Shown piece after piece: positions 1 through 24,352 of a DNA stretch of 64,000 nt. A program made the translations under genes and the position numbers. This DNA comes from Aurantiochytrium sp. KH105 (taxonomy: Eukaryota > Sar > Bigyra > Thraustochytrida > Thraustochytriidae). The stretch spans positions 28,271 to 92,270 of the forward strand of contig BGKB01000225.1 of the NCBI GenBank assembly GCA_003116975.1. The letters run 5' to 3'. Position 1 is the stretch's first letter, and every line of letters starts with the position of its first letter. Under the pieces are notes generated by a model. It saw only the letters and a list, made by a program, of their open reading frames with translations. It was not told the origin of the DNA and searched no databases.

Positions 1-2484
1 CGCGCGATCCCAGGCGGAGGAGGCCAACAAAGAACCCCCACGCAGCTTTCGCGCGACCGGCCTCGACCCCCCGCGGCGGCCGCGAGCGCAGCCAGGTTTC
101 GAGAAGGGAGCCGATCCCTGCGGCAGAACGTACTAACAGTTAGTTAGTACTCAGGTGCACAACGGGGCCGCGCAAAAAGAAGAGAGGGGGCACGCGCCGG
201 CAAGCCAAGCCAAGCCAAGCCAAGCCAAGCGAGGGAGAGCAAGCAGGAGCACGCGTCGGGGCCGCGGGGCTGCAGCCGCCACAGCGAGGGGACAGCCTGC
301 CAGTGGCCGGCCTGTACGCACGGGCAAGTCTTGGCACGCAGAAGCTCTCATCGCGCGGAGCACCGCGGGCGCGCGCGCGCGTCGCCGGGACCCGCTGCCG
401 GTCGATTTCTTTCATCAATCTCTCCCTCCCTCATCCATCTCTTGACCTCCCCCGCTCGCACGCGGCAGCAGCAGCCATAACACACCACCCAACCCCGACC
501 TGCCGAGCCGCCAACTCCGTGCTCTAGACGCCGGGCTCCAGCAGCGCAGGCCGCGTAGCGCAAGCGCCAAACGTAGCCAGCCAGCCCTAGCGGCAGGGGG
601 CGCGCGCCGGCGAGCGGCCGCAGTGGCCGGCCTTCGCTTCCCTCTCCCTTCTTCCGCGTGCCAAAACCACCAAGCAAAGAAACAAACCCTGGCCGCCCGG
701 AGGAAGCACCGCGGCCGTCTCTGCTGCGTACTGCCCGGTGGGGCCCGTGCCGGAGCCAGCCAGCCAGCCCTGCGCAGCAAGCGAGACAGCAATAGATCGA
801 TCGATCGATCGATCAAGGGCCGCCGGCTCGAGGGCTCGTTTGATTGCCTAGTTTCTCCTCCGTCTTTTGTTTACTTGGTCCCGTGTCCCGTGCCGGGCGC
901 GAGAGCCGCTCTCCGAGGCCGCGAGGGCTGTACGCGCGCGCGGAGAGAGGAGAGAAGAGACAGAGAGCGCGGCGAGCTCGTGCGGCCGTCCCTCGCTCGC
1001 GCGCGCTTTCTGTCTCGCGCCGCGTGCACGCGCACGTCGCTGTCGCGCGTGCATAGATTGAGTGAGAGGCAGCGAGCTAGGCGAGACGTACAGCGAGCGA
1101 GGAGCGGCTCTGCGGCCGCCGCAGTGCAGAGAGAGAAGAGCACAAGGAAGGGCGACAAACCCGAGACCTTCTCTCCGGCAGGCAGCAAGGCGAGCGAGCG
1201 AGCGAGCGACAGCAGCGCCCGCCCGTCCGTCGCCGCCGAGATCTCCCAAGCGAGCCCGAGCCCAGAACCGGCAGAGGCCAGGAGCGAGCGAGCGTAGCGA
1301 GCGTCCGCCTTCCGGGTTAGTTGGATCTACCTGGCTGGCGATTGCTTGCTTTCTTTCTTTCCTCCTTTCTTCTCCATCGCAGCCAAGCCTACATCCGCAC
1401 GGCGCTCGCTCAGCCCACTCGGCTCAGCGAGAGACGCACGACCGCAGGCAGACCGGCAGCAGCAGCGGCGGCGGCAGCAGCAGGAGCAGGCGCGGGACGA
1501 GCCCCGTGGCCCCACGGCGGGCAGCCAGCCCAGGCCTCCCTTGCAGCCCGGTCTCTCTCCCTCCCTCCCAAGCCAGCAAGCAAGCCATCCATCCATCCAT
1601 CCATCCGCTCGCGCCTCGTCCAGGCGCGCAGTGCAGCGCACGCCCGTGACGGTCGCGAGCGGGTCTCGAGTGGCCTCCGCAGCGCGTCTGCGCGACGTAC
1701 GTTCGTCTTGCCCAGGCCTCCGCCCTCCTTCGCCTCGCTGAGCGCGGGCGCCTCGCAGACGGAGCGTCCCATTCATTCATCCCTCAAGCCCGCTAAAGGC
1801 CGAGCGCTGCAAAGCCAAGCAAGCCGCGCCAAGCCTTGCCAAGCGAGAGCAGAGCAGAGCAGAGCAGAGCAAGACAGCGAGCGAAAGCCGCGCGAGGCCG
1901 TCCGTCCGTCTGTCGATTCCAGGCTCGGCCGAGAGTCTCGCGGCCGTCGCGCGAGATCAGGAAGCAGCGGGCAGGGAAGGCAAGGAGGAAGGAAGGAAGG
2001 AAGGAAGGAAGGAAGCAGCGCGAGAGACCCAGGCTCGCCCCCGCCCGCCTCGCCGGAGATAGATACGCAGAAAGCAAGCAAGCAAGCAAACCCGAGACGC
2101 AGGAGACCGGGCGCGACGCGAGGAGACGCGAGGCGAGGCGAGGATCCGGGCGGCGCGGCCGGCGCGAAGGGAGCTGCGGACGGTCTCGCAGGCCGGGCGG
2201 CTTGGCTTGGCGCGGCAGAAGTCGGGTCTCCGGGAGAGCGGGTCGCAGTCGCTCGCATCGGGGACTCGGGTGGGAGAGCCATCCATCACTCGGCGACCCA
2301 AGGCGCCTCGCCTGACCTGACGTCGATCGGTCGGCCGGTCAGCGGAAGAAGACCAAAAAGCAAAGCGGGGTCGGTCGCCTGACCGACGCGAGCGACCCTG
2401 GTTGCCGTCGGCCGCAACGGACTCGGGCATCGGCAGAGCGAAGCAGCAGAGCAGACACGGAACGAGCGAGCGCCGGTGAACAGG
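1..2484. promoter_or_regulatory. GC-rich, repeat-laden 5' flank of the first gene
   Basis: No convincing gene is seen. The long open frames here are low-complexity artefacts of GC-rich repeats, rich in Arg, Ala, Ser and Pro. Simple repeats are dense: a CCAAG pentamer run at 201-230, GATC tetramers at 794-814, ATCC tetramers at about 1585-1606, AGAGC pentamers at about 1846-1871, GGAA tetramers at about 1984-2015 and GCAA at about 2071-2089. The stretch probably holds promoter and 5' UTR sequence for the gene starting at 2485, but no TATA-like or other core element stands out. Confidence 0.5.
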
Positions 2485-3564
2485 ATGGCGCTCGCATGGC
2501 TGCGCAGAGCGCTCAAAGGGACGAGCTATGACGAGGAGGGCAGGCTCGTCCCGCCGCTCAAGCGGCAGCGCGACGAGATGCACACGAGCGCGCACGCCGC
2601 CGCGCCCCAAGAAGAGCGCAAGGACAGCGACGACAGCAGGCAAGTCGAGATCTTCAACCGCGAGGACCACCTCTGCACCAGCACAGGGGGGCCTGCGACT
2701 CCGAGCCCTTGCGCGAGCCCCTGCGCCAGGCAACTCGAAAATGAGCGAACGGCGGCCAAGGCTGCGCGCATCGAAAAGCTCGTCGTCGCACGCCTGCAGC
2801 GCGACAAGGAACTTCACCAACAGCTGGCCAAGTACTTTGGCATGCAGAGGCACGTCGTGGTCACCTCGGCCAGCTTTGACATGTGGACCGACGTCCTTGC
2901 GTGGCGGCCCATGTTCGAGGGACTCGCCGCGCTTTGCAAGCATGTCATGAGCGCCACAAAGCGAGAGGTTGCCATTGTCGAAATTCTTACGGTGCTCCTC
3001 GTTCTCTTGCACGCGGAGCGCTTCGCTGCGCTCGTCTCGCTCGATGATCTGGCTGCAATTCTCGCCGATCTCGCTGGAGACGAGACTGTCAACGCAACAA
3101 GCGGTTTCGCCACACGCGAGACAGGCATTCTTGTGCAGCAGCAACAGCAGCACCAGCAGCAACAACAGCAGCAACAACAACAACAAGCGCACCACCACCA
3201 CCACCACCACCATCACCACACGCACACACATGGGAATGCGCATGGCGCAGATGCAGCGGTACGCGGCGCGGCTGCGAGCCTTCCTGGCTGGGACAAGGCG
3301 AAATTTTTCGAAATTTTCGAATCCAAGGTTCTCGAGGGCGAGGTGCGCGGAGACGCCGTCTCCGCAGAGACTCTGGAGAGCATGCTCGCCGGCATGGAGC
3401 CTGGCATTGACTCCTCATTTCTCGCCTATGCCACCTTTACCCTTTTCTCAACTTTTGCCAAATCATGCAAGACCAACCTGACCCTCAGCGAGCTTGCGCA
3501 GCTCGTTAACGCCCTCGACCTCGCTGTCTCCGCGCAGCGTTCCCCGCGCTCCGTGCGCTCATGA
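2485..3564 (+). CDS. Hypothetical protein with polyGln/polyHis tract
   Basis: The frame encodes 359 residues from the ATG at 2485; a GTG nine bases upstream is in frame but unlikely as a eukaryotic start. The N-terminus is basic (motif LKRQRDE near residue 30). Residues about 85-210 look mostly helical. A glutamine-rich run begins near residue 218 and is followed at once by about ten histidines and HTHTH, encoded by CAG/CAA and CAC/CAT repeats. The C-terminal 100 residues are again predicted helical, resembling small helical bundles, and the protein ends in a Ser/Arg tail. I recognise no domain. The gene is intronless, and the region downstream is sparse. The GC-rich codon usage matches the recognised genes and supports it being real. 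Confidence 0.7.
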   Translation: MALAWLRRALKGTSYDEEGRLVPPLKRQRDEMHTSAHAAAPQEERKDSDDSRQVEIFNREDHLCTSTGGPATPSPCASPCARQLENERTAAKAARIEKLVVARLQRDKELHQQLAKYFGMQRHVVVTSASFDMWTDVLAWRPMFEGLAALCKHVMSATKREVAIVEILTVLLVLLHAERFAALVSLDDLAAILADLAGDETVNATSGFATRETGILVQQQQQHQQQQQQQQQQQAHHHHHHHHHHTHTHGNAHGADAAVRGAAASLPGWDKAKFFEIFESKVLEGEVRGDAVSAETLESMLAGMEPGIDSSFLAYATFTLFSTFAKSCKTNLTLSELAQLVNALDLAVSAQRSPRSVRS

Positions 3565-6500
3565 CTCTTTTCAACCCCCCCGTGCCTGATTCCTAAATTT
3601 CATGATGAGCCTGACGCTGATACTCAATCCTTCCAAGATTATAAATTATGTACGATCTGTATAAATTGCTCTCTCTTCTCATGCCGCATCTGCCGTCACT
3701 TGTCTGACCGGACCGCCCAGCCATCAATATCTCGGATGCGTCTACCTCAGTGACAGTGAAGACCGCTTCGCTTCGCGATACAAGACCGCAACTGTGGTAG
3801 GGAGACAAGGGGGCCCAAGAGCGGGTCGGGAAACTGCGCCGCACGACGGGCATTGGAGAGTCGCGTAGCGCGCGTTCAGAGGCACACGTTTATTGACCGA
3901 CAGTGACAGTGACAGTGAGTGCGCACGTCGAAGATGGTTTCCCCAGCCACTCGCGAGAACGCAAGCCCGGCACGGGCGGTATAATCACGCAACGCGTTCA
4001 GGTGCGTGAACGTCGACGTACGGAAAGGATGATGCACCTGTCCGCAGACGCTGCTGCGAGTCTCTCGGAGACATAGAGAGAATGAGAACAAAACAGAGAG
4101 AGAGAGAGAGAGACCGCTTCAAACAACAACCCGTGTATTGATTGGGAAATAGCAGACGCATTCTGCGTCGGTCGGTGCTCTCCAAGCTTGACTTCACGAT
4201 TCCCGAACTTTTTCGATCGACTGAGGCGGCGCAAATGCAAGGCTTTTATGCTCTGCTCAAAAGCCACAGCCAATCGCTCGAATACACTTTTGTAAAAGGT
4301 AAATGGATAAGCGCTACGAGCATGCGCGTTTGCATCCTAAAAAATCGTTCGCGTCGAGTCAAAACTTTTATCAGAAAATTCGGAGAATTAATTCTGCTCA
4401 AGTTGGGAGCGGGGCGCCTCACTCATTGAAGCAAAGATCTTCCACGGAATGATCGCTGCCTTTACAATCAGCTGCTGCAGGACAAAACAACGTTGCGTGA
4501 TGCTGGACGATCATCCAGCCATCCAGCGCGCAGTGGAAGTAGCCAAGCCAGCAAAAGTTCGAAAGTTTCCAAATTTTTATTCTCGCGCAAAATTCACTTG
4601 CGTTCTCATCTTCTGTGCATCGCTACGCTCAGCGCTAGATACATTGACAGAGAGTGCAGTCATGAAGGTATCCACCACCTCTATAATCAAAATTGCAGCC
4701 ATGAACAAGACTGATACAATAGAGCTACCAAAACTCGTTTACCGTGCGAGAGGCGTCGATGGTGATCCGCGTGGCGAGCTTGAATGCCACTTGTTCGTCA
4801 AGCTGGAGGGCCCGCACCCGGCCCTAGTTCTCTCACATGATTTTCGTGTCGCAGGTCTCCTTGAAAGGTCGCGACGCACTCTTCCCGTGCGTAGTACGTC
4901 CGCTTGTCCGTGTTTTTCTTTTCATCCGTGCACTCACTCATGTGGCTCGGTTCTAATGGTGAGATCCTGCTTTTGACGCTTTCGATCGCAGCAAACTCTG
5001 GCCAAACAGCGACAGCGCTTGCACAGAAAGTCACCTTCGAGGCTCTCGGGTTCAGTAAGGTTCAGTAAGTATGCAGTCTGTTCGAGCCACTGACCCGAGG
5101 TGTCGTCGCCCATGACCATATTTTCTTTGCTAAAAGCGTGTCCATGATCGAACTTCAGGATGTTAGCCCCATGCAGCTCCGGCGGACACCGAATTTCCCG
5201 TTCGAGCGTCCATGCTGCAAACGCAGCGTAAGCTTGAAGGGGTACAAGTGTAGTGTGCTTCTCCATGATTTGATTCTTGTCCCGCATTTCAAAGTCGTTC
5301 GCGGCTGCATCAAAGGCGTCGAAAATGACAGATTCGCATCCGAGTGTCTTCATCGAATCAATGTCGTCCTTTCGAGGCAGTGCGACGTTTGCCACAGGTT
5401 TTGGCTCTTCGTCCCAGGCGCCGGCAGGGAGTTTGCACACGATGTGATGCCGAGAAAAGGGCGACGCTGGGGCCGGGTGTAACGCCACCAAATTCTATCT
5501 CTGACTCCCACTCGGTCTTAAGAAAGACACATGTTGTAAATCTTGCGAGCAAAACGCCTCACTCTTTTGTTCCTTGTCTTGATAGTAATACGCGGACGCA
5601 TTGACATGAAGTTGATGTCGCTCCTGACGGAAATTGTTATTGTACTGTCAGCGCACAAGGAAAAAAAAAGGCAATACTGATGAGGAGGTAATCGGCACTT
5701 GACGCTTGCAAAGACGCGGACCTCGCCGCAGCCAAAGTTCATTCCTGATGCGGCTTTACCGGTGTTTCAAGCAACGACAGAGAGCTTCTCTATAGATTCA
5801 CTCCGACGTCGGCACCGAAGCCAATCGAAGGTGGGGAAGGTCAAGGAGCATCTTGCTCGGCCAGGCAGCGATCAAGATGAGTGGGTGCAAGGTTCGCCCA
5901 CGATGAATCTCGCCCCTCGCTCCGCGTCGTCCGTCCGTGCGCCCCTGCATTCCCGCCCCTATTCCAAGGCCTGCGCTTTCTGCTGCTTCTGCAACACACA
6001 TCCCGTTTGAGCCCTCGCGCGTCCTCCCTCTGCGACGGCAGCGTCGGTCGCGGCTTGAGGCAGACACCGCGAGTGCCGCCTCAACTCGAAGACTGCGACC
6101 GCCGGTCGGACCGCCCTCGCCGCATCTCCTCGCAGCGCGTGCAGAAGAGGAGCGAAGAGTTGCGAAGAGACGAGCGTCGCAGGCGCGCGGTAGTCGCGCG
6201 CAGGCGGCTGCGACCGGCAGCACCCGTCGCGGCGCACGCGATGGAGAAGCGGGGGGGGAAGGCGCCTCTCGCGTTGACGTAGTAGCAAGGCATCGCATGC
6301 TGCGCGAGTGTGCTGCGCGGGTGTGCAAGCAAGGGACGCAAGGCGAGAAGGAAGGTGCACGGCGAAGTAGTATAGTGCAGGAGTCGGCCGGCAGCAGAGC
6401 GCAAACGAAGCGAGACAAGCGACCGAAGCGAACACGAGCGTCCAGGAGCACGTACGCAGCGGATGCAGCAGCGAGCGGAGCGGGGGCGTAGCGCGCGGGG

Positions 6501-6626
6501 GGAAAGGGGGAAGGAGGAGCGACGCGGCGGCACGAGCGATCGCAGCGCGGTGCAAAAAGGGCGAGCGATTACTGAGAGAGAAGGGGAGAAAGAACAAGCG
6601 TGTGCACGGCTACTCAAGACGAGAAG
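3565..6626. other. Sparse intergenic region with simple repeats
   Basis: This is a lower-GC stretch with no recognisable gene except the doubtful minus-strand frame described separately. It contains a threefold ACAGTG repeat near 3898-3917 and an AG dinucleotide run at about 4096-4113. From about 5900 to 6600 the sequence becomes CpG-rich again, as expected for the promoter and 5' UTR of the LRR gene that follows. Confidence 0.5.
4934..5491 (-). CDS. Doubtful open frame, possibly an exon or gene remnant
   Basis: This 185-codon open frame on the minus strand has a more protein-like composition than the shadow frames around it: balanced residues, with segments such as QAYAAFAAWTLEREIRCPPE and FDHGHAFSKENMVMGDD. 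It does not begin with ATG (the first codon is TTG), and the first internal Met is about 46 codons in, so if real it is an internal exon, a truncated gene or a pseudogene. The last 25 codons (Cys/Arg-rich) look like read-through into an intron or flank. I do not recognise a family. Upstream and downstream exons could not be identified with confidence. Confidence 0.25.
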   Translation of the reverse strand: MVALHPAPASPFSRHHIVCKLPAGAWDEEPKPVANVALPRKDDIDSMKTLGCESVIFDAFDAAANDFEMRDKNQIMEKHTTLVPLQAYAAFAAWTLEREIRCPPELHGANILKFDHGHAFSKENMVMGDDTSGQWLEQTAYLLNLTEPESLEGDFLCKRCRCLARVCCDRKRQKQDLTIRTEPHE

Positions 6627-9600
6627 ATGAATACCGTGAAGAAGCTCACTGCCCGCATGAAGCGGGCGCCTCGGGCCCATGGTGATGACCATGCGCCTTC
6701 TCTCGCGCATGATGCGGCCAATTAAGATGACGCGTCGCTCGGTTACCTTTCGGACAATGACGAAGACGTAAACGAGGACGTCCATGAGCATCTTGACAAT
6801 CATGGGGACGAAGAAGTGGACGAAGCGTACGACGGAAGCAAGGCCGGTGACGCGTACAGAGAGAGAGATGAAGGAGAGAGCGATGACGATGACGACGATG
6901 AGGACGAAAATTATTATGATGACTATGGCGGCGGCGGTGGCGATAGCGGTGAAGACGGGCAAGAAGAAGAGGACGATGACGACGAAGATCGCGCCGGTGA
7001 CGGGAGCGAAGATAAGTCGCCCGAAGAAGAAGGCCACGAGGAAGAAGGTCAAGAGGAAGAAGGCCTCGAGAAAGGTCTCAGCGGGCAACGTGCGGTCGAG
7101 AAGGCAATCGATCTGATGCGGAACGGCGTCAAAACGATTGAGTACGTTGAAGTGCTAACTAAGGGGATCGAAAGGTTTCGTGCGATTTGACCTATTGACA
7201 TTTTTTTTTCCAAATTATACTCAGTCTCACCAAACGTTCTATCGGCGACGAAGGAACTATTGCGCTGGGAGAAGAGCTTGGTACGAACACCTCACTCGTT
7301 TCGTTGAAGTAAGTTAGCGTTTGAGCGAAATTTGGTTTGATGGAAGCGCGCGCATGTTTGCGCAAGGATAGAACCGGAGTGGTCGAATTGAGTGCAATAT
7401 TACACAATGCCAGGAGGACACTGACTTTATGTGCTTGTCGCCATCACCCAGTCTCGAAAAGAATGGGATCCATGGAGAGGGCGGCGCTGCTCTGGCCGAA
7501 GCCCTGCACCAGAACTCCTCGCTTTCCTCGCTTTCGTAAGTCAAAGCCTGTCGCGGAGTTGATTAGAGTACAGTACCAATAAGAGCTGCTCTGGTAAAGG
7601 CAGCTGAATATTAGCGTCGTAACGACGCCGTTATACCACAAGCAAGAGACTGACAACCACAGACTTTCAATGAGTGCAGTCTCAAGTGCAACAGCATTGG
7701 TGTCGATGGCGCGGTTGCTTTTGCTCACACATTGAGCGTGAACATCGCGCTCTGCTCGCTGAAGTAAGTTGAGCCTCAATCTGTCGTTTTGACACAAAAA
7801 TGGCCTCGTGCAAATATTGCCGGAATCCTCTAGTCGAGCACTCAGCTCCGGTGCCATCTTTTCGGTGTCAAGGTCACATCAAGCGAAGAGAGAAATTCCT
7901 GGAAATGAGTTGATCGAAGACTCACATGACTCGCTCATTGTCACGACGTCAACAGTCTTGGAAGCGACTGGGACCAGAACCACAATAACATTGGAGACGA
8001 TGGGGTCTTGGCGCTCGTCGATGCTCTGGGCGACAATACCGTACTTACGTCCTTGGAGTAAGTTGGTGGCTTGAGATAGGTGCAGAGGACTTGTTACGGC
8101 ACACCTGCGCCAGATTCGGAAATTACAAGACTGACATCTCGAGTTGTTTTCACTGGCAACACACAGTCTCAGCTTCAACGGCATCAGCGAGGTTGGCGGC
8201 AAAGCAATCGCAGACTTGCTCTCCACGAACACGTCGCTGCATATTCTCAGGTAAGCTCTGATTCAATCTTGACAATGGTCAACGAGGCAACATGCATATA
8301 TTTCTGCGTGAAGGAAGGCAGGTGGGCGTTCGTGGCGGAGAGCAGAAAGGCGGGACTGCGCCAAGACGACGGCGACGGCGACATGAGGGTGGACACTGAC
8401 AGCCATTTCGCGCTCATCACTGAATGCAATCAATGCAATGAATGCCATGCCACACCACAATCATCATGCACAGTCTTTCCTCGAACAACATCGGCGACGA
8501 TGGCGCCGTTGGTCTCGGGGAAGGCTTGGGCAAGAACAGCTCGCTTACGTCTTTGTAGTAAGTTGGTTCGGTTGTGTTTTGCTGCGTTTGATTGGAGGCA
8601 AGACTTTGGATTGGACAACGCAAGAAAGTTNGCTGCGAAAAACATCGGCGTTGCTGGTCAGATGACAATTGCCGAGGTGCTCTTGACAAAGAATGGTGGC
8701 TTGCGTGAAATCGAGTAAGTTGTGTTTGGGCATGGTTTTTGCCCTGAAGAAAGTATGAAATTTCTGCATACTAATCTCGCCGTTCTATTCTTCAATCAGT
8801 GGCCTACCTGAGCTACCATCAAGCTCATGGACCGAGATGCTCCAAGCTTCGAAAGGCGACGCTCAGGTGAAACGAATTTGGGAGTATCTCTTTGACAAGG
8901 ATGAAGAAAAATGGACGTCGGCCGCGCATGAGCTGGCCGGGGAATCGGCGCACATATTTGCGGTCCTTCTTATTGTTCTCACTCAATTTGACGCGGGGAC
9001 GCAGGAGACGCAGATGCGTCTCGAGGATCCCGAATTTTGGCTTTGAAGCACGAAGATGCGAACGAAAAGCAGAAAGAGGGACAGGATGAAGACGCCAATC
9101 TTCCCTTAATCCATGCTCTGTTTGACTGTCACGCGACCAGAACGGAATTTTCCCTTCTCGAACGTTTTTGCGACGAAGTTCTCATGACGTGCCTGTCTCT
9201 CAAAGATGGTCTATCGCTGATGAAGGCTGAAGACGGCGGTGGTCGAACGGTTCGTTCACTTGCGCTCACAAATAAAAACACCAAGGGGTGGGCCAAAACG
9301 TATGGCACATATCTCGATCGTTACAGTGTCATGGAAGGCCCTCCAGTCCACGAATCGAAATCATGTGCGGTGCACTACGCGACGGATATTCAAACAAACA
9401 AAGCAGTGGCGCTCAAGATCATGCGAGAAAAAAAGCAGTACAATCGTGAGATTCGTGCACGCACAGCTGCAGACGGCGGAGATGCGAGTCCTAAAGGGTG
9501 TTTGCCACTTCTTGACCATGTGGACGAAGAGCTATGCCTGGTCATGCAAAGAGGATCGCGTTCGCTTTTCGAAGCCATCAACACGGAGCGCTTTGCTGGC

Positions 9601-11796
9601 CGCGATCTGCGAAAGATCCGCATGATCGCATACAAGATTCTTTCTGCAGTCAAAAGTCTGCACGACAGCGGTCGCATTCATGGCGACATCAAGCCGCGCA
9701 ACGTTGTGCGTGTTAGTGCTCCAAAGCAACACACGTTTTTGAATGAAGAAAAAGGAGGTCGTCTCGCGGTGCCAGACGAATGGCGAAAAAATGTGACTGG
9801 AGAGCGTCCTGACGCCATCGACGACGAAGATTGGCAACTCATTGATTTGGACGCATCGGCACCGATTTCGACGCCGGAGAAAAAAAGGGTCGTCACGGAA
9901 AAGGTGAGCACTGGCTATGCAGCCCCCGAATTAGCCAAATGGCATTTCTTGCCTGAAGCAAAAAGGGACAAGACGCCGCTGGCTGACCCGGCGATCGATG
10001 TTTGGGGCTTTGGCGTGGTTCTTTTCCAGATGCTCTCGGGCACAAAACTTTTCATGGTCGACGAGTCCGACGACAATCTCGTGGCAAGACACGACAAGGT
10101 GGAGCTCATGAATTGGCTTGCGCTGGACGATGAACGTCTTCATCGCATCAAGAGTCGTCATGAGAAAGATGAGGAGAAGGAGGGCGAGAACGACGGTGAG
10201 ATGATCGGGGATGAGGATAGCGTGAAGACAGATGGTCTCGATGCGGATACTTTCCAGATCGAGGCCGCGCGCGACTTGGTGCGATTTTGTCTTCGCGGCG
10301 ATGCGAACGAACGCATAAAAATAGATCAAATTCTCAACGAGCATCCGTTTTTTGAGACCCTTCGCAACCTAAGCCATGAGAACGAAGAGGTAGATACTAC
10401 GGCCACCAAGGTCGCGCGCGCGAACAAGCGCGATTTCTCTCGTTTCTCTCGCCGTGTGATGAGCCTTCACAGGCGCGTGATTCCCAAACGATTCAGTCTT
10501 TTTGGTCGCACGACCAAGTCGCGACTGAACAGAAATACAAGGTCGAGTATCTTTTACGAGGAACGTGCCCATAACGAACTCATTGCGCTCCCGACATACC
10601 ACTTTTTCCTGTCGCACGTGCAGTCGCAGGCGGCAGGGACTGTCAAGGACCTTGCAGCTGGCCTTGATCGCCACCGAATGTCATCTTGGGTGGATATGAA
10701 TGCCACTGAGATCCACCTCCAGAGCATGCATCGCGGCATCCTTTCGTCTCAGTGCTTTATCATGGTGCTCACCAAAGATGTACTGTTTCGGCCCTACTGT
10801 CTCGCCGAGTTGCATTATGCCGTTGAGTACTTTGGCCGAGCAGAAGGTGGGCTGGCGAAGCACATTTTCTTCATTGTCGAAGAAGATACCCGATTTCACC
10901 CATGGAACCATCATAACGTGCCATGGCATTGTTCTTCCAAAGATCTAGTTGCGGGCGAGGACCTTTCGCATCGACAAGGAGCTGGCGATGACAGAGCTTT
11001 CAGTCCTAGCTCAGGCTTGAGCAAGCTGGGCGCATGCACCTTTTGGTCAACGAGGCAAGACGATGCGTTGCAGCATCCTGGCGGCGACGAGGCAGATGCA
11101 GAAACACATGTATCTAAACTTGAGACTTTGTTGAAGGAGCTAGAGCTGCAGGACTGGAGAGGAGTTCCTGTGCAGCCAGAACAGATACTGAACAATGCGG
11201 AGACGGCTCTGTCAGAATGCAAACGTATCCCATATCGTCGACGTCTCTTTGAGGAAGATGCAATGCTGCGTGTTCTGGCAGAGAGAGCAGGATTCCAAGC
11301 CATCCCACATCACATTGGAAAAAATGCTACAAACGAGGAGAAGGAAGTTCTTCGACTGGCAGTGGTGGGCAAACAAAGCTCCAAGGCAGTCAAAAGCTTT
11401 GGACACAAGCTTCGTGAGCAAAAGGTTTCTGTGGATGATGCCAATCCTCAAGTCATCGTGGTCATACTTGAGAAAGGTTGCTGGGATGACGTCCAAACAT
11501 TTTGGGAGGACCAATCCCAAAAAGGAAACGATGCTGAGGAAATGGGAGCTCCTCTGCTTGCAGTCGCGGTCTGCGGTACTGATGAGGAGTGGGATTTCAA
11601 GTACAAGAATAAGTTTAAAAACCCTGCACTCCGTTCTATTCTCTTTGACCGCCTCGAGGTGCTCATGTGGCGGGATGCTCCTGGAGCTAAAAACCGGGAT
11701 CCCGAAAAGTACATTGTGGAACACGAGGAACCAGCGCTCATCACGGAGCTTTGCTCACGTGCGAAAATGTTGCAGCGGCCTCCTCTCAAAACCTGA
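6627..11796 (+). CDS. LRR-kinase-TIR receptor-like protein (multi-exon; frame break near 9035)
   Basis: Proposed exons: 6627-6680 (tentative), 6727-7174, 7225-7308, 7452-7535, 7680-7763, 7956-8057, 8167-8250, 8474-8557, about 8629-8714 and 8800-11796. Introns 50-223 nt long separate the LRR exons, mostly with GTAAG donors. Exon 2 is very acidic (Asp/Glu runs). Seven exons each encode one ribonuclease-inhibitor-type LRR (LxxNxIGxxGxxALAxxLxxNxSLxSL). The last exon holds a protein kinase and a TIR domain. Counting from codon 9037, the kinase has VALK Lys127, HGDIKPRN with Asp217, DLD in place of DFG at 270-272, and APE at 296-298. The TIR starts near 521 (FFLSH) and has a CLAEL glutamate at 591, matching the plant TIR catalytic Glu position. 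About 270 further residues follow. A one-base deletion in the T run near 9035-9038 splits the last exon into two frames; adding one T gives a continuous protein. A weak-donor intron 8963-9048 is the alternative. The first exon and start are least certain. Confidence 0.75.
7225..8714 (+). repeat. Array of seven LRR-coding exons, one repeat per exon
   Basis: Exons 7225-7308, 7452-7535, 7680-7763, 8167-8250 and 8474-8557 are each exactly 84 nt (28 codons). Exon 7956-8057 is 102 nt (six extra residues before the Asn). The last is 86 nt as given and contains the unresolved base 8631; it needs one more base to stay in frame. Every intron interrupts in phase 2 at the same point of the repeat, just before the first consensus Leu, so a repeat module can be gained or lost without breaking the frame. 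Donors are nearly invariant (GTAAGTT, GTAAGTC or GTAAGCT). Confidence 0.85.
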
Positions 11797-13065
11797 ACCC
11801 CTTTTGAAACAATTGTATTCCTTTTGCATCCTTGCTCATCGCTCAAGAGAAGCTCGACATTGAATCTGATCGTATGCTGTATGAAGGGTCCCACTTTGAC
11901 ATTTCTTGAATTCCCCGCGCCACAAGAGCCTCTCTTAGGTTCAAAGTGATGAGTTGCACAGGTGCAAGTGGACAAAACAATGGGTCTTGGTAAGCAAAAA
12001 TTATCTCGCCAATTTGCAGCATCTGATCCTTGACGGATTTTATGAGCCGAGGCATATTTTAGAAGTCCTTTGCCAAGGTTTGCGGCACGATGTGAGTGGC
12101 TGAAGGCATGTTGCGCATCCGAGACACGCTTAAAGACCTCTGCAGATCAGAAGCTAGCGCGAATCCAATCATAGCAGCAGCAGCAGCAGCAGCAAAAGCG
12201 ACACAAGACAGCGGCAGTAGAAATAGTAAAAGGATGTCTCTTGCTTGACTTCAATAGATGGATGATCCAGGAAGTGATCCTCTCTGGGAATGCTAGACCA
12301 GCTCGGAAGCTCATCATACCAAGGCCTAACGGTCATGACACGTAGTGGCTGAGCGATGACTATCAGGCATGCTCGTCGTGTGCCTGAAGAATGTTGCTTG
12401 CACACTTTGACTTTGAATGCATCTGTGTCCTTTCTATCTGAAGCTTCGAGAGATCTTGTCGTGGCCTCCACATTAAATTAAAAATGCGCTGACGCAACAA
12501 GAAGGAAAGATGCGTCAACGATCTGCAAACAGAAGTGGATCAATTTGGCAAATGTATTCTTTTTGATCTGGTCTATGTCACTTTACACGGGAGTTCACTA
12601 TGTGATCGAGCCAAAATGGAAGAAGATCACTAATCGCTAGATGTGGGACAACAAGTTTGCACAAGCAACAACAAACAAGGTACTCATAATTTTTCGTTGA
12701 CAAGCAGTCCCTGAAAGGGCAGCCTCATTTGCATAAGATGAAAAGTTATGGCGCCGTCTGTTGCCCATGCTCCGTGCACCATATAAGACTTTCCACAAAG
12801 GCTCTTTGCAACCCCACTTCTTCATTTCCCCTCTGTCCGCACGAGAACGGTACAACTAAGTCAGAAAAGGTTCAGTGCCGCGGGTGATGACGCAAACCAG
12901 AAAGTCCTCCGCTGTCCCCCGTAAGGTGTGCAAATCCGGCAGGTCCCATCTTACTTGACCCAGTGTTCGCGCTAGGACGGGGCGAGATACGGACTTTCGC
13001 CGCTGTTTGCGACGCCGCTTTAGGCAGGACCTCGCGTCGTAGTCACCTCAACTCCCTGCCAAATC

Positions 13066-13101
13066 GTCGAATCGAATCGAATCAAATCAAATCAAATCAA
13101 A
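13066..13101 (+). repeat. AATCG/AATCA pentanucleotide repeat
   Basis: About three AATCG units followed by four AATCA units, in the intergenic region far upstream of squalene synthase. Confidence 0.85.
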
Positions 13102-14885
13102 GCTAGGCAAATCAGATCAAAGAATCCAGAGCAAACCAAACCGAGGCCGCGGCCCTCGCCATCCTGGCTCTCGCAAGAGCTCGGGGGCACCCCGAAGGAC
13201 GAACCGCCCTGCCCCGCGCGCGACAGAAACGGCGAGACGCAGCTTCCCCGCCCTCGTTCACAATGGGGACGAAGGCACTTCTGTGGTGGCCTCGCCGGCG
13301 ACCGCGAGCGCGTCGTAGACTGCGGTCTCGAGGAGGTGAGGGAACATGGCGAGCGCGATGGAGAGCGAAAAGTCGAAGGCACCTTCGGGTCTATGGTCGG
13401 CGATAATCAGCGGATGCGTGGCAGCAGTGAGTTAGTTACGCGTTGAAGATGGTGGGTGTACCACGTGTGTGTGCAGCCTTGACGAGCGGCGTGTGATGTG
13501 GCTGCAAGGATGGCTGTGGACGGATGTATTTTGCTGCGAGCGAGCGAGCGTGCGTGCGTGCGTGCGTGCGTGTGAGCGAGCGCGCACACATCGCTCTTCA
13601 TCATCTTCCCCTTCCTCTACTTCTCCTTCTTCATCTTCCGGCTTCTGCTCAGCCGCCGCTTGTTCGGATCATCCTCGACCCTTGACAGACCAACCGACCG
13701 ACCTGCACCAACCGACCGGCCGGCCCGATCGACCAAGACGCGCAACGCTGTGAGGCCACTCCGTCCTGACAGAGCGAGCCGTGCCTTCCGCAGTCGCCAG
13801 GGCTCTTCTCAGGTCGGTCCCCTGCGAGCCCTGGCGCGCTGCAGCTTCTTCACTGCCGCCACACCGAGATCAAGGGTTTAGTTTGTAGCGCAGTCAGCCG
13901 CCGCAGCCGAGCCCCGTCGCGCCGCGCCAAGGCCGGAGAAGGAGAGAAAAAAGGAAGCCCGTCTCGACTCTGGTGTCCGCTGGCCCTGGCGGATGTCGGC
14001 TTGCTCATTCTGCTCGCCGCCTGATCAAAGTGCGATTCCTCGCCCGCTCGCTCGCGTCTTTGCTTGCTTCTTGCTTGCTTGCTTTCTTGCTTTCGTCTGC
14101 CAGCTTGTTCTCTTGCGTCGGTGTCGATCTGGCGACCCTGGCGGTGGTAGAGTCATACTGTCTGCCATGGCTGCTGCTACAAAATGAGAAAACCAGAAAA
14201 CAAAGAAGGAAAAGTAGAAAAGAAAGAAGCAGAAAAGCGCAGAAAAGCAGGAAAAAGGGGAAAGGCCTCTGTTCGTTCGCTGCTTTCGCCGTCTCGCTGC
14301 GCGCGAAGAGGCGGGGCAGCGCGTGCCGGCAGCAAAGCCGGAGTCGAGTCGAGTCGCGTCGCGTCGCGCCGCGGCCTCGGAGCGGAGCCCGGCGTCTGGC
14401 CCAGCCAGCCAGCGAGCCCCGCGCGAGCGAGCGAGCGAGCGAGCGAGGCACGCGCGCGCGCGCAGGCACGCCGCAGGCAGGCTCGCAGCCGGCCAAGGAG
14501 GAGGAGCCGAGCGTCTGCGCAGCGGGAGCGACGCGCACGAGGGAGGCGTCATCCATCGGCGCCAGCAGAGCAGAGCAGAGCGGAGCAGAGCGGAGCGGAG
14601 CAGAGCGGAGCGGAGCAGGGCAGCGCGAGGGCGGCCGCGAGAGGCGGGCCCCGGCGACGCGCCGAGGACGAGGAGAGGAGCGCGGCAGCGCCGCTTGCAG
14701 CAAGAGCGCGGTGGGTGGAGCGGGTTGAGTTGAGTTGAGTTGAGTCTCGGCTCCGCTCGCTCGCCGAGCCAGCCAGCAAGCCAGCTGGCAGCGAGGTCCG
14801 CTCGCTTCAGCGGCAAGGTCGGCGCAGCAAAGTGCGACGAAGCGATAAATAGCGCGGGGCAGCTCAGCAAAGGTTTGCCAGCTCA

Positions 14886-14937
14886 GCCAAGCCAAGCCAA
14901 GCCAAGCCAAGCCAAGCCAAGCCAAGCTAAGCCAAGC
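14886..14937 (+). repeat. CCAAG pentanucleotide repeat
   Basis: About ten CCAAG units with one TAAG variant, 36 bp upstream of the squalene synthase ATG. The same unit occurs at 201-230. Confidence 0.9.
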
Positions 14938-19055: not shown

Positions 19056-20895
19056 TCAGGTGACAAGTCGCTTTGACGTAAAGGCAGAGACGGCAATAGC
19101 CATGGCTTGGAAAGGCGAGATCGGATGGCGAAAGTCCAGCGAGAAACGGTCCTTGAGCACCTTGCCAAAGCGCAGACAGACAGTGTCTGCTCCAAACTCC
19201 TCCTCCATTGTCTCATTTTGCGCTTGCGGCACAAGCATAAAGTTCTTCTTGGAGGCCATCTTTACGCGCGAATTAAAATTGAGCGTCCACGCTTGAAGCT
19301 CCTCGTTCCATTGAGGCTTCAAGGTGTCAAACTCGAGCAGTTCAGAGAGCTCCTCGGACTCTACCGCGCGATACTCGTCTCCTTTGCGAGCTTGCAGCTT
19401 TTGAATTAGATTCATATCCTGAGCATGTCGAGTTCGCGTTGTGCCCTTATAGCGATCGGCCAGCGAACGTCGCTGACCGCGCAAGCCTTGTTCGGGATCC
19501 CAGCGCGGAAGCACGGCCTTGAGGCTGTTAGGGACACGACCCAAGACATTGTGTTCGTACATGATGTAGCCCAGCTCATGGTGCCGTATCTTTCGCGTGG
19601 ACGTTGGGTTCGAGACACGATAGTCATGCACAGTGAGTGCGGTGCCTGCAAAGTTTTGTTCCATACAGCCCAGGTACCGTGACGACTCGGGGTGCATCGG
19701 AATGTCCTTGATGTCCCCATCGAGCTTAATGTCTTGCGAATTGTGGAAGATGATGCGGCCTTTGCCGCTCCGTGGAAGCACAGCGCCGAGAAGAAATTTA
19801 TTGTCTGACTCACGGAAAAAGTGAAGCGAGATGATCTTCTCGCTGCGCCATCGCAGAATATAGCCATACACCATGTCCATGTGCTCGGGCGGCTCGTAGA
19901 TTCTGCTTTTTTGTTTGTAAATAATGCTGCGCGCCTCGGAGGCGTCCTCGTCGCCCACGCCAAAGGCATCCTGTATTCTGGTTGCGGTGCGAAAGCGAAT
20001 GCGATACGGACCGGCCTTTTGAGCCTCTTTAAGCATTTCCTCGATCCTCTCCAAACACAGACCTGCGCAAGATTCTCCATTGATGTTGACAAGGAAGTCA
20101 CCAACGTGAATTTCGTTCGACCATGGCCGATCCCCGTCACTCCCGCCAGCCGCACGCGGGCCTCCGTCGAGGAACTCGGAACGAGGGAGTTCGTCCACGA
20201 CGGCCGACTTGCCCAGCCAGTCGTCATCAAAGGTTAGACCAGACTTGCCCGGAAGAAATTTCACTTCGTAAATCTCATCTGGGGGTGGTGGCAGCGGTGC
20301 AAAGGTTTGCGGGAACGGCCTTGCTGCTGGGGCCGCGATAGCTCGTTGACCTCCAGGCGAAGGTGGCTGGATGTTGACTAAAGATTTGACATTCATGAAC
20401 GGATCGTACGAGTCCAAACGCGACCGGTCGCCTTCGTCATCGCTATCTTCGCCGAGAAACTCAGACGGGTCAACCAGACCTGTGCCGCATTGCGAGCAAG
20501 CTTCAATCTCAAGAGGACAGAGAGTCCCGCACGAGGTGCAGTAAATCTCTTCGGGGATCGCCTCTTCCTCCTCATCGTCGTCGTCATCATCGTCATCGTC
20601 GTCGTCGTTGTCGGCTTCTCCACCGCTGATGCCGCGGTCGGCACTGGCGGCTTGCTCGATGCCCACGAGGTCATCTGTTTCAACGAGTTGACCATCGCTC
20701 CGTCGTCCCTTNGCCCGCGCCCTCGCCCGCGCCCGCGCCGCCCGCGCCGCCCGCGCCGCCCGCGGCGGCTCGCGCGGCGGGATGGCGCGGCGGCGGCGCC
20801 TGCGAGCCCGCGCCGAAGGCGCCGCGCGGGGCGGCCGCAGAGGCCGCGGCGGCGCCGCCCAGCAGGCCGCCCTCCTCGTCGCTGTCGCTGTCCAT
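19056..20895 (-). CDS. Zinc ribbon-PDZ-Tubby domain protein (frame break at unresolved base 20712)
   Basis: The protein has about 612 residues once the frame is repaired. The likely start is the ATG at 20895 (MDSDSDEEGG), followed by a Gly/Ala-rich linker; at 20712 the frame changes, and dropping the N joins the two frames cleanly. Then come an Asp/Glu run, a CxxC-x10-CxxC zinc ribbon (YCTSCG...CSQCG, near residue 118), a PDZ-like domain (VKFLPGKSGLTF near 211, then VGDFLVNINGESC), and a C-terminal Tubby domain from about 343 (YGYILRWRSEK) to the end, with the diagnostic tail FGKVLKDRFSLDFRHPISPF followed by QAMAIAVSAF. Tubby domains bind phosphoinositides and, in animals and plants, act in ciliary trafficking or membrane-tethered signalling. 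The combination with a zinc ribbon and PDZ is unusual. It is divergent from the Dad1-like gene, 158 bp away. Confidence 0.85.
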
Positions 20896-21053
20896 GGCGC
20901 CGCTCCCGCCTCCGCGACACACCGCGGCGCTCGAGGCGCGCGAATCCAAATCTGAATCCAGGTCTGCAAATCCAAATCTGCCTCGCCCGCGCTCGCCTCC
21001 CGCGCCGACCTCGCCCACCTCGAGCTCGAGCTCGACGCCGCGGCGGAGGAGGG
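20896..21053. promoter_or_regulatory. Compact bidirectional promoter between Tubby-like and Dad1-like genes
   Basis: Only 158 bp separate the proposed start codons of two divergent genes, so both promoters must overlap here. The interval is GC-rich and contains a CTCGAG/GAGCTC cluster near 21019-21035. No TATA-like element is seen. Confidence 0.5.
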
Positions 21054-21593
21054 ATGGACGCCGACAAGCGCGCGGACGCGGACGCCTTCCGGACGGAGCG
21101 CGACCATCTCCTCGGAGAGATCGTCCAGGTGCGTGAGGAGAGAGTCGAGGAAAGGGCGCAACCGTCGAGGCGGAGACGGAGACGGAGACGGCGCGCGAGG
21201 GCGGCGTGCTCCTGGGGTCGTTGGGGGACGAAGGGGGAGATGAGCGGCCGCGGCGCGGAGAAAGCGTGTGCGGGCGGATGCGGAAAAGGGGGTGCAGGTG
21301 GATTTTGGGCGGAAAGAGGAAATGGTGGAGATGGAGGCGATGCGGCAGACGCTTTGGCGAGACGGCGAGCGACGGGTGAGGGCTTGGCGCAGAAGGGATG
21401 TACTGACGATGATTTGCAAACGCGTACACTTTGCTTCGTGTTATACAATGATGATGATCTCCAACAGGGATTGCGCGACGCCACGTCCGAGATGCGCAAG
21501 CTGAACCGTAACATGGAGCATGTTGTTGAGATCGGCAAGGGTTTCGAGCGTTCTGCCGTGCTCTGGGAGGCTTTCTGCAAGGATCTCAAATAA
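21054..21593 (+). CDS. DAD1: DASH/Dam1 complex subunit Dad1-like protein (two exons)
   Basis: Exon 1 is 21054-21128 (25 codons, phase 0, donor GTGCGT) and exon 2 is 21468-21593 (41 codons plus TAA, acceptor CAACAG); the intron is 339 nt. The 66-residue product matches the small Dad1 family end to end: FRTERDHLLGEIV, then the helix ATSEMRKLNRNMEHVVEIGK, then GFERSAVLWEAF. In fungi Dad1 is part of the ten-subunit DASH/Dam1 ring that couples kinetochores to microtubules. The only frame covering both exons runs through the intron and would give a spurious 367-residue protein, so automated annotation could miss the gene. Recognition rests on family patterns remembered for this short protein; splice sites and phase are seen directly. 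No other DASH subunit is in the window. Confidence 0.82.
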   Translation: MDADKRADADAFRTERDHLLGEIVQVREERVEERAQPSRRRRRRRRRARAACSWGRWGTKGEMSGRGAEKACAGGCGKGGAGGFWAERGNGGDGGDAADALARRRATGEGLAQKGCTDDDLQTRTLCFVLYNDDDLQQGLRDATSEMRKLNRNMEHVVEIGKGFERSAVLWEAFCKDLK

Positions 21594-22250
21594 TCTACTC
21601 TTCTCTTTCTCAAGGCTAGAAAACCCGAAACTGTATAAATGCTCCGAGAAGGTGTAGACTTCGCATCATCCTTACAGTATACAGTCGTGGCCTCTCACTA
21701 CGATGAGAGGTCACCGTTCTAATTATCAAACGTTCCTCCCCGGCCCGCGTGTCGCGAGCTTGCTTGTTTGCTTGCTAGCTTGTTGCTTGCTAGCTTGTCT
21801 GCTTGCTAGCTTGTCTGCTTGTTTATGCGTTCCTCCTTGGCACGGCTCGCGCTGCTCCTGTTGCCGCTTGCTATGCTTTCGTTGGTCGCAACACGGTAAG
21901 ATTCCTTCTCTCCTTCCACTATAGTATACCTAGTAAGTAGGCCTGGTATAACTCAACCACCACTTGAACGCAATGCAATCCAGTTCAACAATCCAGAGCA
22001 GGCAAGGCAAACGACCGGTACTGCAGCAGCAACCGCCGCCGCTCGCGGGCCCGCACGTGCGCGCGAGGACAGCGGGGAGAAGGGCGCGCCGCGGGAGGGT
22101 GAGCAGAAGCCCCGCGCAGCGCCTGAGCGAGTCGCGCGCCGCACAACTTCGAGAGGGCGGAGCGTGCAGCGAGCAAGCCGGCGAGCTCGTTGGCAAAGCA
22201 CGTCGCGCGTCCGTGGTGTGGCGTAGCGTGGCGTATCTTGACCGGAGAGG
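21594..22250. promoter_or_regulatory. 5' flank of RCC2 gene with GCTT/GCTAGC repeats
   Basis: A pyrimidine-biased repeat of GCTTGCTTG/GCTAGCTTGT units fills about 21756-21825. The remaining sequence up to the ATG at 22251 is GC-rich. No gene is seen. Confidence 0.5.
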
Positions 22251-23822
22251 ATGTCGGGCGCAGCGTCGGGCGAGGATGAAAAGAAGGGCGGCGAGGTCGT
22301 CTTTGCCGGCCACGCAAGCTGGAGCATGCTAGGCAAGAACTCCAAGACGAGCAATTTTGACGGCGTGGAAAACCAGCTTTTGTGGGGCTTCCAACGTCTC
22401 AAGCCGCTCGTAGGTATCAAGGTGACCAAGGTCATCTCTGGACCTAACTCCGGAACATGCATCGCACTGAGCGCCACCGGCCAGGCGTACACGTGGGGCC
22501 GAAACATGCATGGCCAGCTCGGACATGGCCATCAGACAAACCTCTACAACCCCACCCCCGTCGAGGTGCCCAACTCGGAGTCCATCATCGGCGGCGGTGC
22601 CGGCCCGAACCATACGCTTCTCTATAGTGCGCGTGGGTCCCTCTTTGCGGCTGGTCTCGGCAAGTCGGGACAGCTCGGGATTGGGCGCAAGGTCGACATG
22701 GTGAAAAAGTTCGTTACCGTCGACATTGCAAGCGTCATCACCGCGGCCGCCTGTGGCCGTGACTTTTCCATCATCGTCGGCAGCCACGGTGTCATTTACT
22801 CTTTTGGTCATCCAGAAAAGGGCGTTCTCGGCAACGGAACCGAGGGAAAGACCCTCGAGCGCTCCAACAAGTACACCTTTGAGTGCACCACGCGCCCCGA
22901 GCCCATCGTCGCCCTGCAACGTGCCTACGGCGACGTGACCATCACCGATGTGGCCTGTGGCGCCCAGCACACGTGTGCCATGGACACCCAAGGGCGCATC
23001 TACACCTGGGGCTTTGGCGGCTTTGGTCGTCTTGGCCACGGCGACAACAAGGACCACTTTGAGCCCACAGCTGTCGAACTCTTCTCCATGGAACCCCCAC
23101 CCCTGGACCCGAACATTCCCAAGTTTATGCAGAACCAGCAACCCAAGATCCGTGGAACGCAAATCACCTGCGGGTCCACTTCTACCTTTGTTGTCGCCGG
23201 AGAGCCGTACAACTCACTGTACATGTTCGGCATCACCAAGCGATCCGGGGAGGCTACTATGCGACCTGTGGTCGAGAACAATGTTCAGGGCTGGCGCTGC
23301 CGCTCCGTTTCTTGCGGCAACACCTCCATTTGCTTTGCGTCTGAGCGTAAGCTCATTACCTGGGGACCCAGCCCAACCTATGGCGAACTCGGCTACGGCG
23401 AGGGCGAGAACATTCCGCGCTCTTCTACTGTTAGCAAGGAGGTCGATGCTCTCTCTGGCGCCCTGACGCTTCAGGTCGCCTCAGGTATGGCCTTTTCTCT
23501 CGCCATTATCGACACTTCAGATGACACCTCCAAGGAAAAGGTTGAAGCCCTGCCAGTCTTTGCACCCGCCGAGGTTGACCCGGCGCTTGCCAAAGCCGCC
23601 GCGCAAAAGTCTCTGGAGGAGCGCCGTGCCAAGCGTGCAAAGAAAAAGACCAAAGCAAAGCGCCCTGCAAATAACGAGGAAGATGACGAAGATGATGACG
23701 CGCCCATTGACGTCGATGATGAAGACGACGATGACGCTTCAGCCGGCGACGATGACGATGATGACGAAGAGGAGGAAGAGGAGGAAGAAGTCAAGCCCAA
23801 GGCCAAGCGCCGCAAGAAGTAG
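22251..23822 (+). CDS. RCC2: RCC2/TD-60-like protein, RCC1-repeat beta-propeller
   Basis: 523 residues, intronless. RCC1-type repeats run from about residue 40 to 430, with units such as AYTWGRNMHGQLGHGH, VACGAQHTCAMDTQGRIYTW and GFGGFGRLGHGDNKDHFEP. The signature WGPSPTYGELGYGEG followed by SSTVSKEVDALSG matches RCC2 (TD-60) rather than RCC1, whose Ran-exchange residues are not expected here. RCC2 in animals associates with centromeres and the midzone and regulates Rac1/Arf6 and the chromosomal passenger complex; the role in this organism is inference. The C-terminal 80 residues are a highly charged tail: basic KRAKKKTKAKRP, Asp/Glu runs, then basic KPKAKRRKK, likely a nuclear localisation signal. 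It converges with the large Rabconnectin gene (530 bp between). Confidence 0.93.
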   Translation: MSGAASGEDEKKGGEVVFAGHASWSMLGKNSKTSNFDGVENQLLWGFQRLKPLVGIKVTKVISGPNSGTCIALSATGQAYTWGRNMHGQLGHGHQTNLYNPTPVEVPNSESIIGGGAGPNHTLLYSARGSLFAAGLGKSGQLGIGRKVDMVKKFVTVDIASVITAAACGRDFSIIVGSHGVIYSFGHPEKGVLGNGTEGKTLERSNKYTFECTTRPEPIVALQRAYGDVTITDVACGAQHTCAMDTQGRIYTWGFGGFGRLGHGDNKDHFEPTAVELFSMEPPPLDPNIPKFMQNQQPKIRGTQITCGSTSTFVVAGEPYNSLYMFGITKRSGEATMRPVVENNVQGWRCRSVSCGNTSICFASERKLITWGPSPTYGELGYGEGENIPRSSTVSKEVDALSGALTLQVASGMAFSLAIIDTSDDTSKEKVEALPVFAPAEVDPALAKAAAQKSLEERRAKRAKKKTKAKRPANNEEDDEDDDAPIDVDDEDDDDASAGDDDDDDEEEEEEEEVKPKAKRRKK

Positions 23823-24352
23823 GCGAGTTAATCTGCCTCGTTCACCAGAGCAACCCCGAGCTTCGTATTTGGACCGACACTCGAACTGACTGAAGAAAAA
23901 AAATTATCCTTCTTCGCGACAATCTATAAGAGAACACGAGAATATATGTTTGGAAGCTTCAAGCTTGTGTCTTTTGCTTGTATTCGCAGACGGTCTCGAT
24001 AACGAATGGATCGCGCAGATCCTCATCATTGGTTCAACCCATTCGATTAGCTCGCTCGTCTTCTCAACTAAGCTTCATCGAATGCCATGTGACGCTCATG
24101 GTCAGTCAGACCAGGCAAACGTGGCAAACGTACTTCCCGTCGGAATTTGGAGCAGACACAAGCCCGTGGATCACATGCGCGAAAGGGGAATCCACGTTTC
24201 CCCCGCCCCTTTGGCACCGGAAGAAAACACGAAAATTGCACCCCAAAAAGGTATCTCCATTGCGCTCCCACAATTGCGCACTCTTCCAAGACAGTTCAAG
24301 CGTCTGGGAATCCAAATCATCAATTTATCATCCATCTTCTTACTACTTACAT
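23823..24352. other. Convergent 3' intergenic region
   Basis: This is AT-richer sequence between the stop codons of RCC2 (plus) and the Rabconnectin-like gene (minus). No gene, RNA or repeat stands out. It should contain both polyadenylation regions. Confidence 0.4.

Follow-up and report, generated by a model that had tools for sequence, protein, structure and literature searches.

The LRR-kinase-TIR family described here was found through a 64,000-nucleotide stretch of the genome of Aurantiochytrium sp. KH105 (the window), in which a gene at positions 6627 to 11796 of the forward strand joins leucine-rich repeats (LRRs) of the ribonuclease inhibitor (RI) type, a protein kinase domain, and a TIR domain. 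This LRR-kinase-TIR architecture is real, and the window gene is one member of a family encoded in the same 76-Mb genome. The family may represent a new kind of innate-immune receptor, with LRR arrays that in several members are most diverse on the putative binding face. The window copy itself is a damaged or misassembled family member. In the following, C-numbers denote contigs of this genome and L-numbers denote stretches or frames taken from it.

The LRR-kinase-TIR architecture

The order of LRR, kinase, and TIR in one protein, proposed in the initial annotation, is demonstrated by two single-frame loci. L033 contains LRR_6, Pkinase, and TIR_2 in one uninterrupted frame (1284 amino acids examined of a frame of 1313), and L065 contains the same domains in one frame of 1570 amino acids, with TIR_2 exactly at the cut-off. 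The architecture is therefore independent of splice models, and these loci, together with paralogues that have the same exons as the window gene, make the domain order of the window more than chance. The layout of one exon per LRR with phase-2 introns occurs in the window and in the paralogue arrays, while L033 and L065 instead carry their LRRs within one frame. A protein search of the genome, in which 49 of the 184 candidates were scored, yields at least 76 matched stretches, and the eleven best family matches show identities of 58 to 86%, the window itself being excluded from these percentages. Twenty of 22 large family frames that were aligned contain a TIR domain, and 2 contain the kinase only. 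Many members have a near-identical partner on another contig, a pattern typical of diploid assemblies, and the haploid gene number is therefore probably about half. Kinase-only members with frames of 506 amino acids, in which HGDVEP replaces HGDIKP, are found in L030 and L031 (C182 and C96).

A division into two adjacent genes, in which the LRR gene would end near 9046 and the kinase-TIR gene would begin near 9184, would agree with the window copy, in which the two frames are unjoined and the LRR frame stops at 9046. However, seven paralogue frames of 993 to 1133 amino acids (L010 to L013 and L015 to L017) cross the equivalent of this break and run on through the kinase and the TIR domain. Since L033 and L065 each encode the three domains in a single frame, the two-gene reading is refuted for the family and is very improbable altogether. 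The single gene with one repairable base of the initial annotation holds only in part for the window copy, but the architecture itself is real.

The kinase domain retains the catalytic Lys, Glu, Asp (HxD), Asn, and Asp (DxG) in all 22 aligned rows (K142, E153, D232, N237, and D285). The HRD motif is HGD in 21 rows and HAD in 1, and the DFG motif is DLD in 22 rows. Among the best 60 of 417 matches of the family profile in the PDB, CLK and DYRK kinases come first. Bacterial defence families also match the protein, with PADLOC mad6 (1.7e-27) and PD-T4-6 on the kinase and PDC-S66 touching the TIR domain at 7.7e-4; membership was not accepted for any of them, nor for NCBIfam families, whose matches lie far below the cut-offs. 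Searches for viral and prokaryotic relatives in IMG/VR and GTDB with the family alignment gave 52 and 66 pattern-matched stretches, none of which was confirmed; with two short peptide seeds each, distant relatives may escape these searches.

The TIR domain of the window protein scores 34.3 bits with TIR_2, compared to a curated cut-off of 28. The glutamate of the CLAEL motif, reported as conserved in the initial annotation, lies in a C-x-x-E-L context at the position that we take to be that of the catalytic glutamate of TIR NADases. It is present in 18 of the 20 family TIRs. The TIR profile weakly matches two TIR sequences in the PDB, 7uxr and 4lzp; the family glutamate aligns with the glutamate of 4lzp, and the alignment with 7uxr ends short of that position. 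In L015 and L017 (C68 and C21), the glutamate is replaced by glycine even though kinase and LRR array are retained. These two copies and the low TIR_2 score would suit a TIR domain acting as a nonenzymatic scaffold, with the kinase as the sole output. The conservation of the glutamate in the other copies and its alignment with 4lzp make such a scaffold role rather unlikely.

A conserved C-terminal domain follows the TIR domain and opens with a YRRR motif that is invariant in 16 of 16 rows. It has no Pfam match in the three members scanned, and the idea that it is a second TIR domain was rejected, with an hhalign probability of 0.9%. Nine kinase-TIR frames and exon 1 of the C215 copy contain no strongly hydrophobic segment, the top mean over 19 residues on the Kyte-Doolittle scale being 1.62 (multi-exon LRR arrays excluded). 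By hydropathy, these sequences lack the signal peptide and transmembrane helix that characterize LRR receptor-like kinases, which points to probably cytosolic kinase-TIR receptors.

The window gene and its apparent allele

Exon 1 of the window gene (6627 to 7141) begins with the ATG at 6627 and encodes an acidic N-terminal region; in the C215 copy, Asp and Glu account for 36% of the residues of this exon. The donor at 7142 is read from the phase match with the first LRR exon. Six exons follow at 7225 to 8557, five of 84 nucleotides and one of 102, and each encodes one RI-type LRR and has an AG acceptor, a GT donor, and phase 2 at both ends. LRR exons 1, 2, 3, and 5 (7225 to 7308, 7452 to 7535, 7680 to 7763, and 8167 to 8250) are found by the AG/GT exon scan and by an LRR hidden Markov model, and the 102-nucleotide LRR exon 4 (7956 to 8057) is found by the exon scan. 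LRR exon 6 (8474 to 8557) is the sole central cassette of variable copy number that remains in this assembly. The last LRR exon, the seventh, persists as remains at 8629 to 8714, with its 3' end at 8714 and a 5' end and acceptor disturbed around an N at 8631. The last exon (8800 to 11796) contains a linker, the kinase, the TIR domain, and the C-terminal domain (11227 to 11793). An open frame of 934 amino acids at 8992 to 11796 covers most of it and holds Pkinase at residues 126 to 454 (9367 to 10353; 9e-22) and TIR_2 at residues 538 to 630 (10603 to 10881; 3.7e-8), with the CLAEL glutamate codon at 10807 to 10809.

This copy is probably not intact. Exon 1 contains an in-frame TAA at 6723 to 6725, a place that is open in the apparent allele on C215 and in the paralogues on C69 and C42. 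The frame read from the LRRs into the last exon stops at 9046, and the kinase-TIR part is encoded in a different frame. Window position 8629 aligns to position 6589 of L064, the C215 copy, and position 8633 aligns to 6789, so that about 200 bases present in the allele are absent from the window. Judged from this alignment, the LRR repeat array has been collapsed in the assembly at the N at 8631. The seven RI-type LRRs counted in the initial annotation, six clean exons and a seventh, are therefore a lower bound. Phase-2 splicing holds for the LRR exons, but the single repairable base assumed there understates the damage, which includes the TAA, the stop at 9046, and the collapse.

The C215 copy (L064, C215:44500-53900) is apparently the other haplotype or allele of the window gene, as suggested by its co-linearity with the window. 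Identity is 95 to 97% in 20001 to 24000, 89.5% over 2283 to 8626, 82% over 8633 to 9268, and 86% over 11301 to 13258. Compared to the window, C215 has an open exon 1, one additional cassette of 341 bp, and one LRR exon that lacks GT at the expected donor. Its kinase and TIR domain have been removed by an in-frame deletion that joins residues 16 to 92 to residues 771 to 931 in a frame of 360 amino acids; what remains is the LRR exons together with the flanking parts of the last exon.

In this assembly, a complete LRR-kinase-TIR protein is therefore encoded by neither of the two apparent alleles, and the locus itself may be dead, which counts against a working receptor at this site. A pseudogene or decaying haplotype, with a stop, a frame break, and a contracted array in one allele and the loss of kinase and TIR in the other, is slightly the more probable state of this locus. 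The TAA and the break near 9046 are seen neither in the allele nor in the compared paralogues, the C215 copy adds its deletion and its missing donor, and the paralogue on C116 is likewise divided over two frames. On the other hand, the assembly is poor at this point, so some of the lesions could be errors, and the C215 copy is still open in exon 1 and in the last exon and could serve as an LRR-only partner.

Diversity and sharing of LRR cassettes

The arrays of the family differ widely in length. The number of LRR units per gene is 7 in the collapsed window copy, 8 in C215, 11 in C42, 16 in C69 (which has an N gap), 20 in both C68 and its partner C21, and at least 22 in C9, where the array reaches the edge of the stretch examined. 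The central cassette occurs once in the window, twice in C215, at least 3 times in C57, 5 times in C42, 10 times in C69, and at least 21 times in C9. Cassettes of exon plus intron make up the central part of the arrays in C69, C9, and C42, and those compared measure 318 to 373 bp; three intervals of other length in C9 were excluded from the comparison.

Within these young arrays, introns differ little between cassettes, by 12.8% in C9 (n=17), 7% in C69 (n=8), and 9% in C42 (n=5). The five codons of the concave strand, by contrast, differ by 51% (C9), 50% (C69), and 56% (C42), at all three codon positions, compared to 12%, 12%, and 28% for the other exon codons. The concave positions were fixed from the LxxLxLxxN motif, independently of the observed variation. 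Comparing concave and intron columns gives p values of 8.9e-10 (C9), 2.5e-13 (C69), and 1.6e-13 (C42), uncorrected and from nonindependent columns and pairs. The LRR-ROC-COR-TIR gene on C16 (n=8 cassettes) shows the same pattern, with 0.49 at concave sites versus 0.149 in introns (p = 2.4e-6). Across 39 central cassettes, concave sites have a ratio of nonsynonymous to synonymous differences (pN/pS) of 1.06 (bootstrap 0.92 to 1.25) versus 0.61 elsewhere, the second figure being lowered by the motif with which these cassettes were selected. Without motif selection, concave pN/pS exceeds that of the remaining sites in 13 of 13 arrays, the allelic ones included. The variable codons form a limited set of multibase words, with 23 left words, 16 right words, and 32 left/right combinations in 43 cassettes and 3 four-gamete pairs. 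In our reading, introns and framework would be homogenized by gene conversion or unequal crossing-over, old diversity would persist at the binding face, and recombination would re-pair the words.

Several observations fit this reading poorly. In C42, exon codons outside the concave face also exceed the introns (28% versus 9%). In older arrays, with introns diverged by 33 to 35%, C24 shows only a weak excess at concave sites (p=0.03) and C33 a nonsignificant one (p=0.16), and the difference is reversed in C41 (0.27 versus 0.35). The allelic pair C5/C21 shows no concave excess, and C68/C21 shows only a mild one. Moreover, concave pN/pS is about 1 and not clearly above it. Diversification of the concave face is thus clear in C9, C69, C42, and C16 and weak or absent in C24, C33, and C41.

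The cassettes are not confined to kinase-TIR genes. The window cassette at 8285 to 8629 has 79 matches in the genome, among them arrays that precede COR-A by 1 to 3 kb in four ROC-COR-TIR genes. The identities are 92 to 94% in C303 and C101, 94% in C342, and 83 to 90% in C90, and some of these four genes may be alleles or copies of each other. These values are comparable to the 95% of its best kinase-TIR relatives. The LRR-ROC-COR-TIR gene on C90 has about 700 bp in common with kinase-TIR arrays, introns included, at 74 to 91% identity. Shared intron-containing cassettes of the two gene types lie at L058 98-813, C303:24134-25821, C101:240478-241813, and C342:907-1235. Such high identities upstream of both gene types indicate that LRR cassettes move between, or were recently shared by, two TIR chassis. 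Against this, the gene on C16 has only 47 bp in common with the tested kinase-TIR arrays. Further window-like cassette arrays are found at C66:327582-329218, C116:20641-25019, and C9:125139-126406 and on C133, C143, and C217.

The genome contains at least 150 TIR_2 matches and 124 COR-A matches. Ninety-one of the 150 listed TIR matches follow a COR-A of the same strand at a distance of no more than 2.5 kb, and none of the remaining 59 is near a kinase-TIR locus; the kinase-TIR family is therefore additional to the listed 150. ROC-COR is found in the sister genes on C16 and C90, and none is found in the kinase-TIR proteins scanned. The absence of an NB-ARC or NACHT core, noted initially, is confirmed for the window protein (P0001), and no match to either domain is found in L010, L029, L033, L037, or L065. 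The genome has 2 NB-ARC matches, just above the cut-off, and 17 NACHT matches (15 above the cut-off), none of them on the contigs of the kinase-TIR family matches; from these counts, there is no sign of an expansion of NLRs. Other contexts of TIR domains are an ankyrin-TIR combination in L005, TIR as the sole Pfam domain in L001 and L003, and a ROCO-TIR gene on C137 (L056) with WD40-like repeats upstream, as judged by eye.

Proposed function and relation to known systems

The domain content suggests, with reasonable though limited confidence, that the family comprises cytosolic, germline-shuffled receptors for non-self or damage, with LRR sensing, a kinase relay, and TIR output. The hypervariable binding face makes an immune role more likely, although this is still inference. 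In the proposed mechanism, the protein is laid out as an acidic N terminus, an RI-type LRR horseshoe as the sensor, the protein kinase, the TIR domain, and the C-terminal domain. The LRR face would bind a non-self or damage ligand, and binding would release or cluster the kinase-TIR module. The kinase would fill the role of switch or relay that NB-ARC has in plant TIR-NLRs, and clustered TIR domains may then cleave NAD+, leading to a signal or to cell death. New specificities would arise from unequal crossing-over or conversion in the homogenized introns. The introns lie inside the ligand-binding β-strand, and each such event can therefore pair a left half-strand anew with a right one.

Typing of self and non-self is also in keeping with hypervariable LRR faces, and thraustochytrids live among bacteria and detritus, which would suit receptors for allorecognition or for sensing of prey and surfaces rather than for defense. 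A TIR architecture with no recognizable membrane anchor would instead favor intracellular surveillance, and the alternative is considered improbable. Within the preferred immune reading, a wider proposal is put forward only tentatively, at somewhat below even confidence. It holds that a unicellular heterokont with no sign of NLR expansion could have built its repertoire of intracellular immune receptors from one shared set of shuffling LRR cassettes placed in two TIR chassis, kinase-TIR and ROC-COR-TIR, by half-strand rejoining, with a kinase or a Roco GTPase replacing the NB-ARC switch. In its boldest form, cassettes would additionally be rearranged somatically or by alternative splicing. If true, a kinase can stand between an LRR sensor and a TIR effector in place of a nucleotide-binding switch, and a protist shuffles one pool of exon cassettes among different receptor families. 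The family would then offer a testable system for TIR signaling without NLRs and for the question of whether non-self receptors of a unicellular heterokont arise from shuffled LRR exons.

Plant TIR-NB-ARC-LRR receptors (TNLs) are likewise single cytosolic proteins with an LRR sensor and a TIR effector, and the glutamate of their TIR domain sits in a C-x-x-E-L motif. In contrast to TNLs, the proteins described here have no NB-ARC, a kinase in between, and a reversed order, with the LRRs N-terminal and the TIR domain towards the C terminus. Animal NLRs have RI-type LRRs of 28 amino acids whose exons are duplicated as units, as here, but the present family has a kinase and a TIR domain and no NACHT. 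Of the features of NLR and STAND proteins, the LRR sensor array is thus present and the NB-ARC or NACHT core is absent. The ROCO kinases of the LRRK type (LRR-ROC-COR-kinase) are also LRR proteins with a kinase; they differ in their ROC-COR, which is lacking in the scanned kinase-TIR proteins, whose best PDB kinases are CLK and DYRK and to which a TIR domain is added.

The shuffling of LRR exons and the fusion of ROCO proteins with TIR domains are already known. According to Teng et al. 2024 (PMC11378527; citing Zambounis et al. 2012), brown-algal LRR-ROC-COR (ROCO) genes have 72-bp phase-2 LRR exons with concave sites under positive selection, and LRR-ROC-COR is given there as the only brown-algal structure. 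These genes resemble the present ones in their tandem arrays of single-LRR exons bounded by phase-2 introns, concave-face selection, a proposed role as immune receptors, and a heterokont host. They differ in their 72-bp exons and 23-amino-acid LRRs compared to 84-nucleotide RI-type exons here, where common cassettes occur in kinase-TIR and ROC-COR-TIR chassis and the kinase-TIR proteins have no ROC-COR core. The same source names a TPR-ROCO-TIR protein of the red alga Chondrus crispus, which joins a Roco GTPase to a TIR domain like the ROC-COR-TIR sister genes of this genome, but has TPR in place of shuffled LRR exons and no kinase-TIR. The LRR genes of Tetrahymena (PMC6564038) are similar in that their LRR exons have one exact length, an extreme bias to phase 2, and a copy number that varies, and in the fusion of some members to a protein kinase; they have 90-bp exons and belong to a ciliate, and the term TIR is absent from the main text of that paper. 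Among the literature matches listed, with most subscription papers outside the scope of the search, none describes an LRR-kinase-TIR chassis or a sharing of 84-nucleotide RI-type cassettes between kinase-TIR and ROC-COR-TIR genes, and none combines TIR, thraustochytrids, and immunity.

A heterokont host, as given in the initial annotation, is likely and agrees with two pairs of strong PfaD-type matches in the genome, at 710 and 682 bits, which fit the polyunsaturated fatty acid synthase of thraustochytrids. We infer that the assembly is that of a diploid thraustochytrid. A photosynthetic alga was rejected as the host, with no match to light-harvesting proteins in the genome. The window contains no Rfam or tRNA match, and L001 and L005 contain no Rfam match. 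Of the 10 neighboring frames scanned in the window, the one at 2383 to 3561 matches no family. The other nine, at 14931 to 63151, match ordinary families, namely, squalene/phytoene synthase, a kinase, Tub, RCC1, Rav1, NPL4, SF3b1/HEAT, and two VWA proteins.

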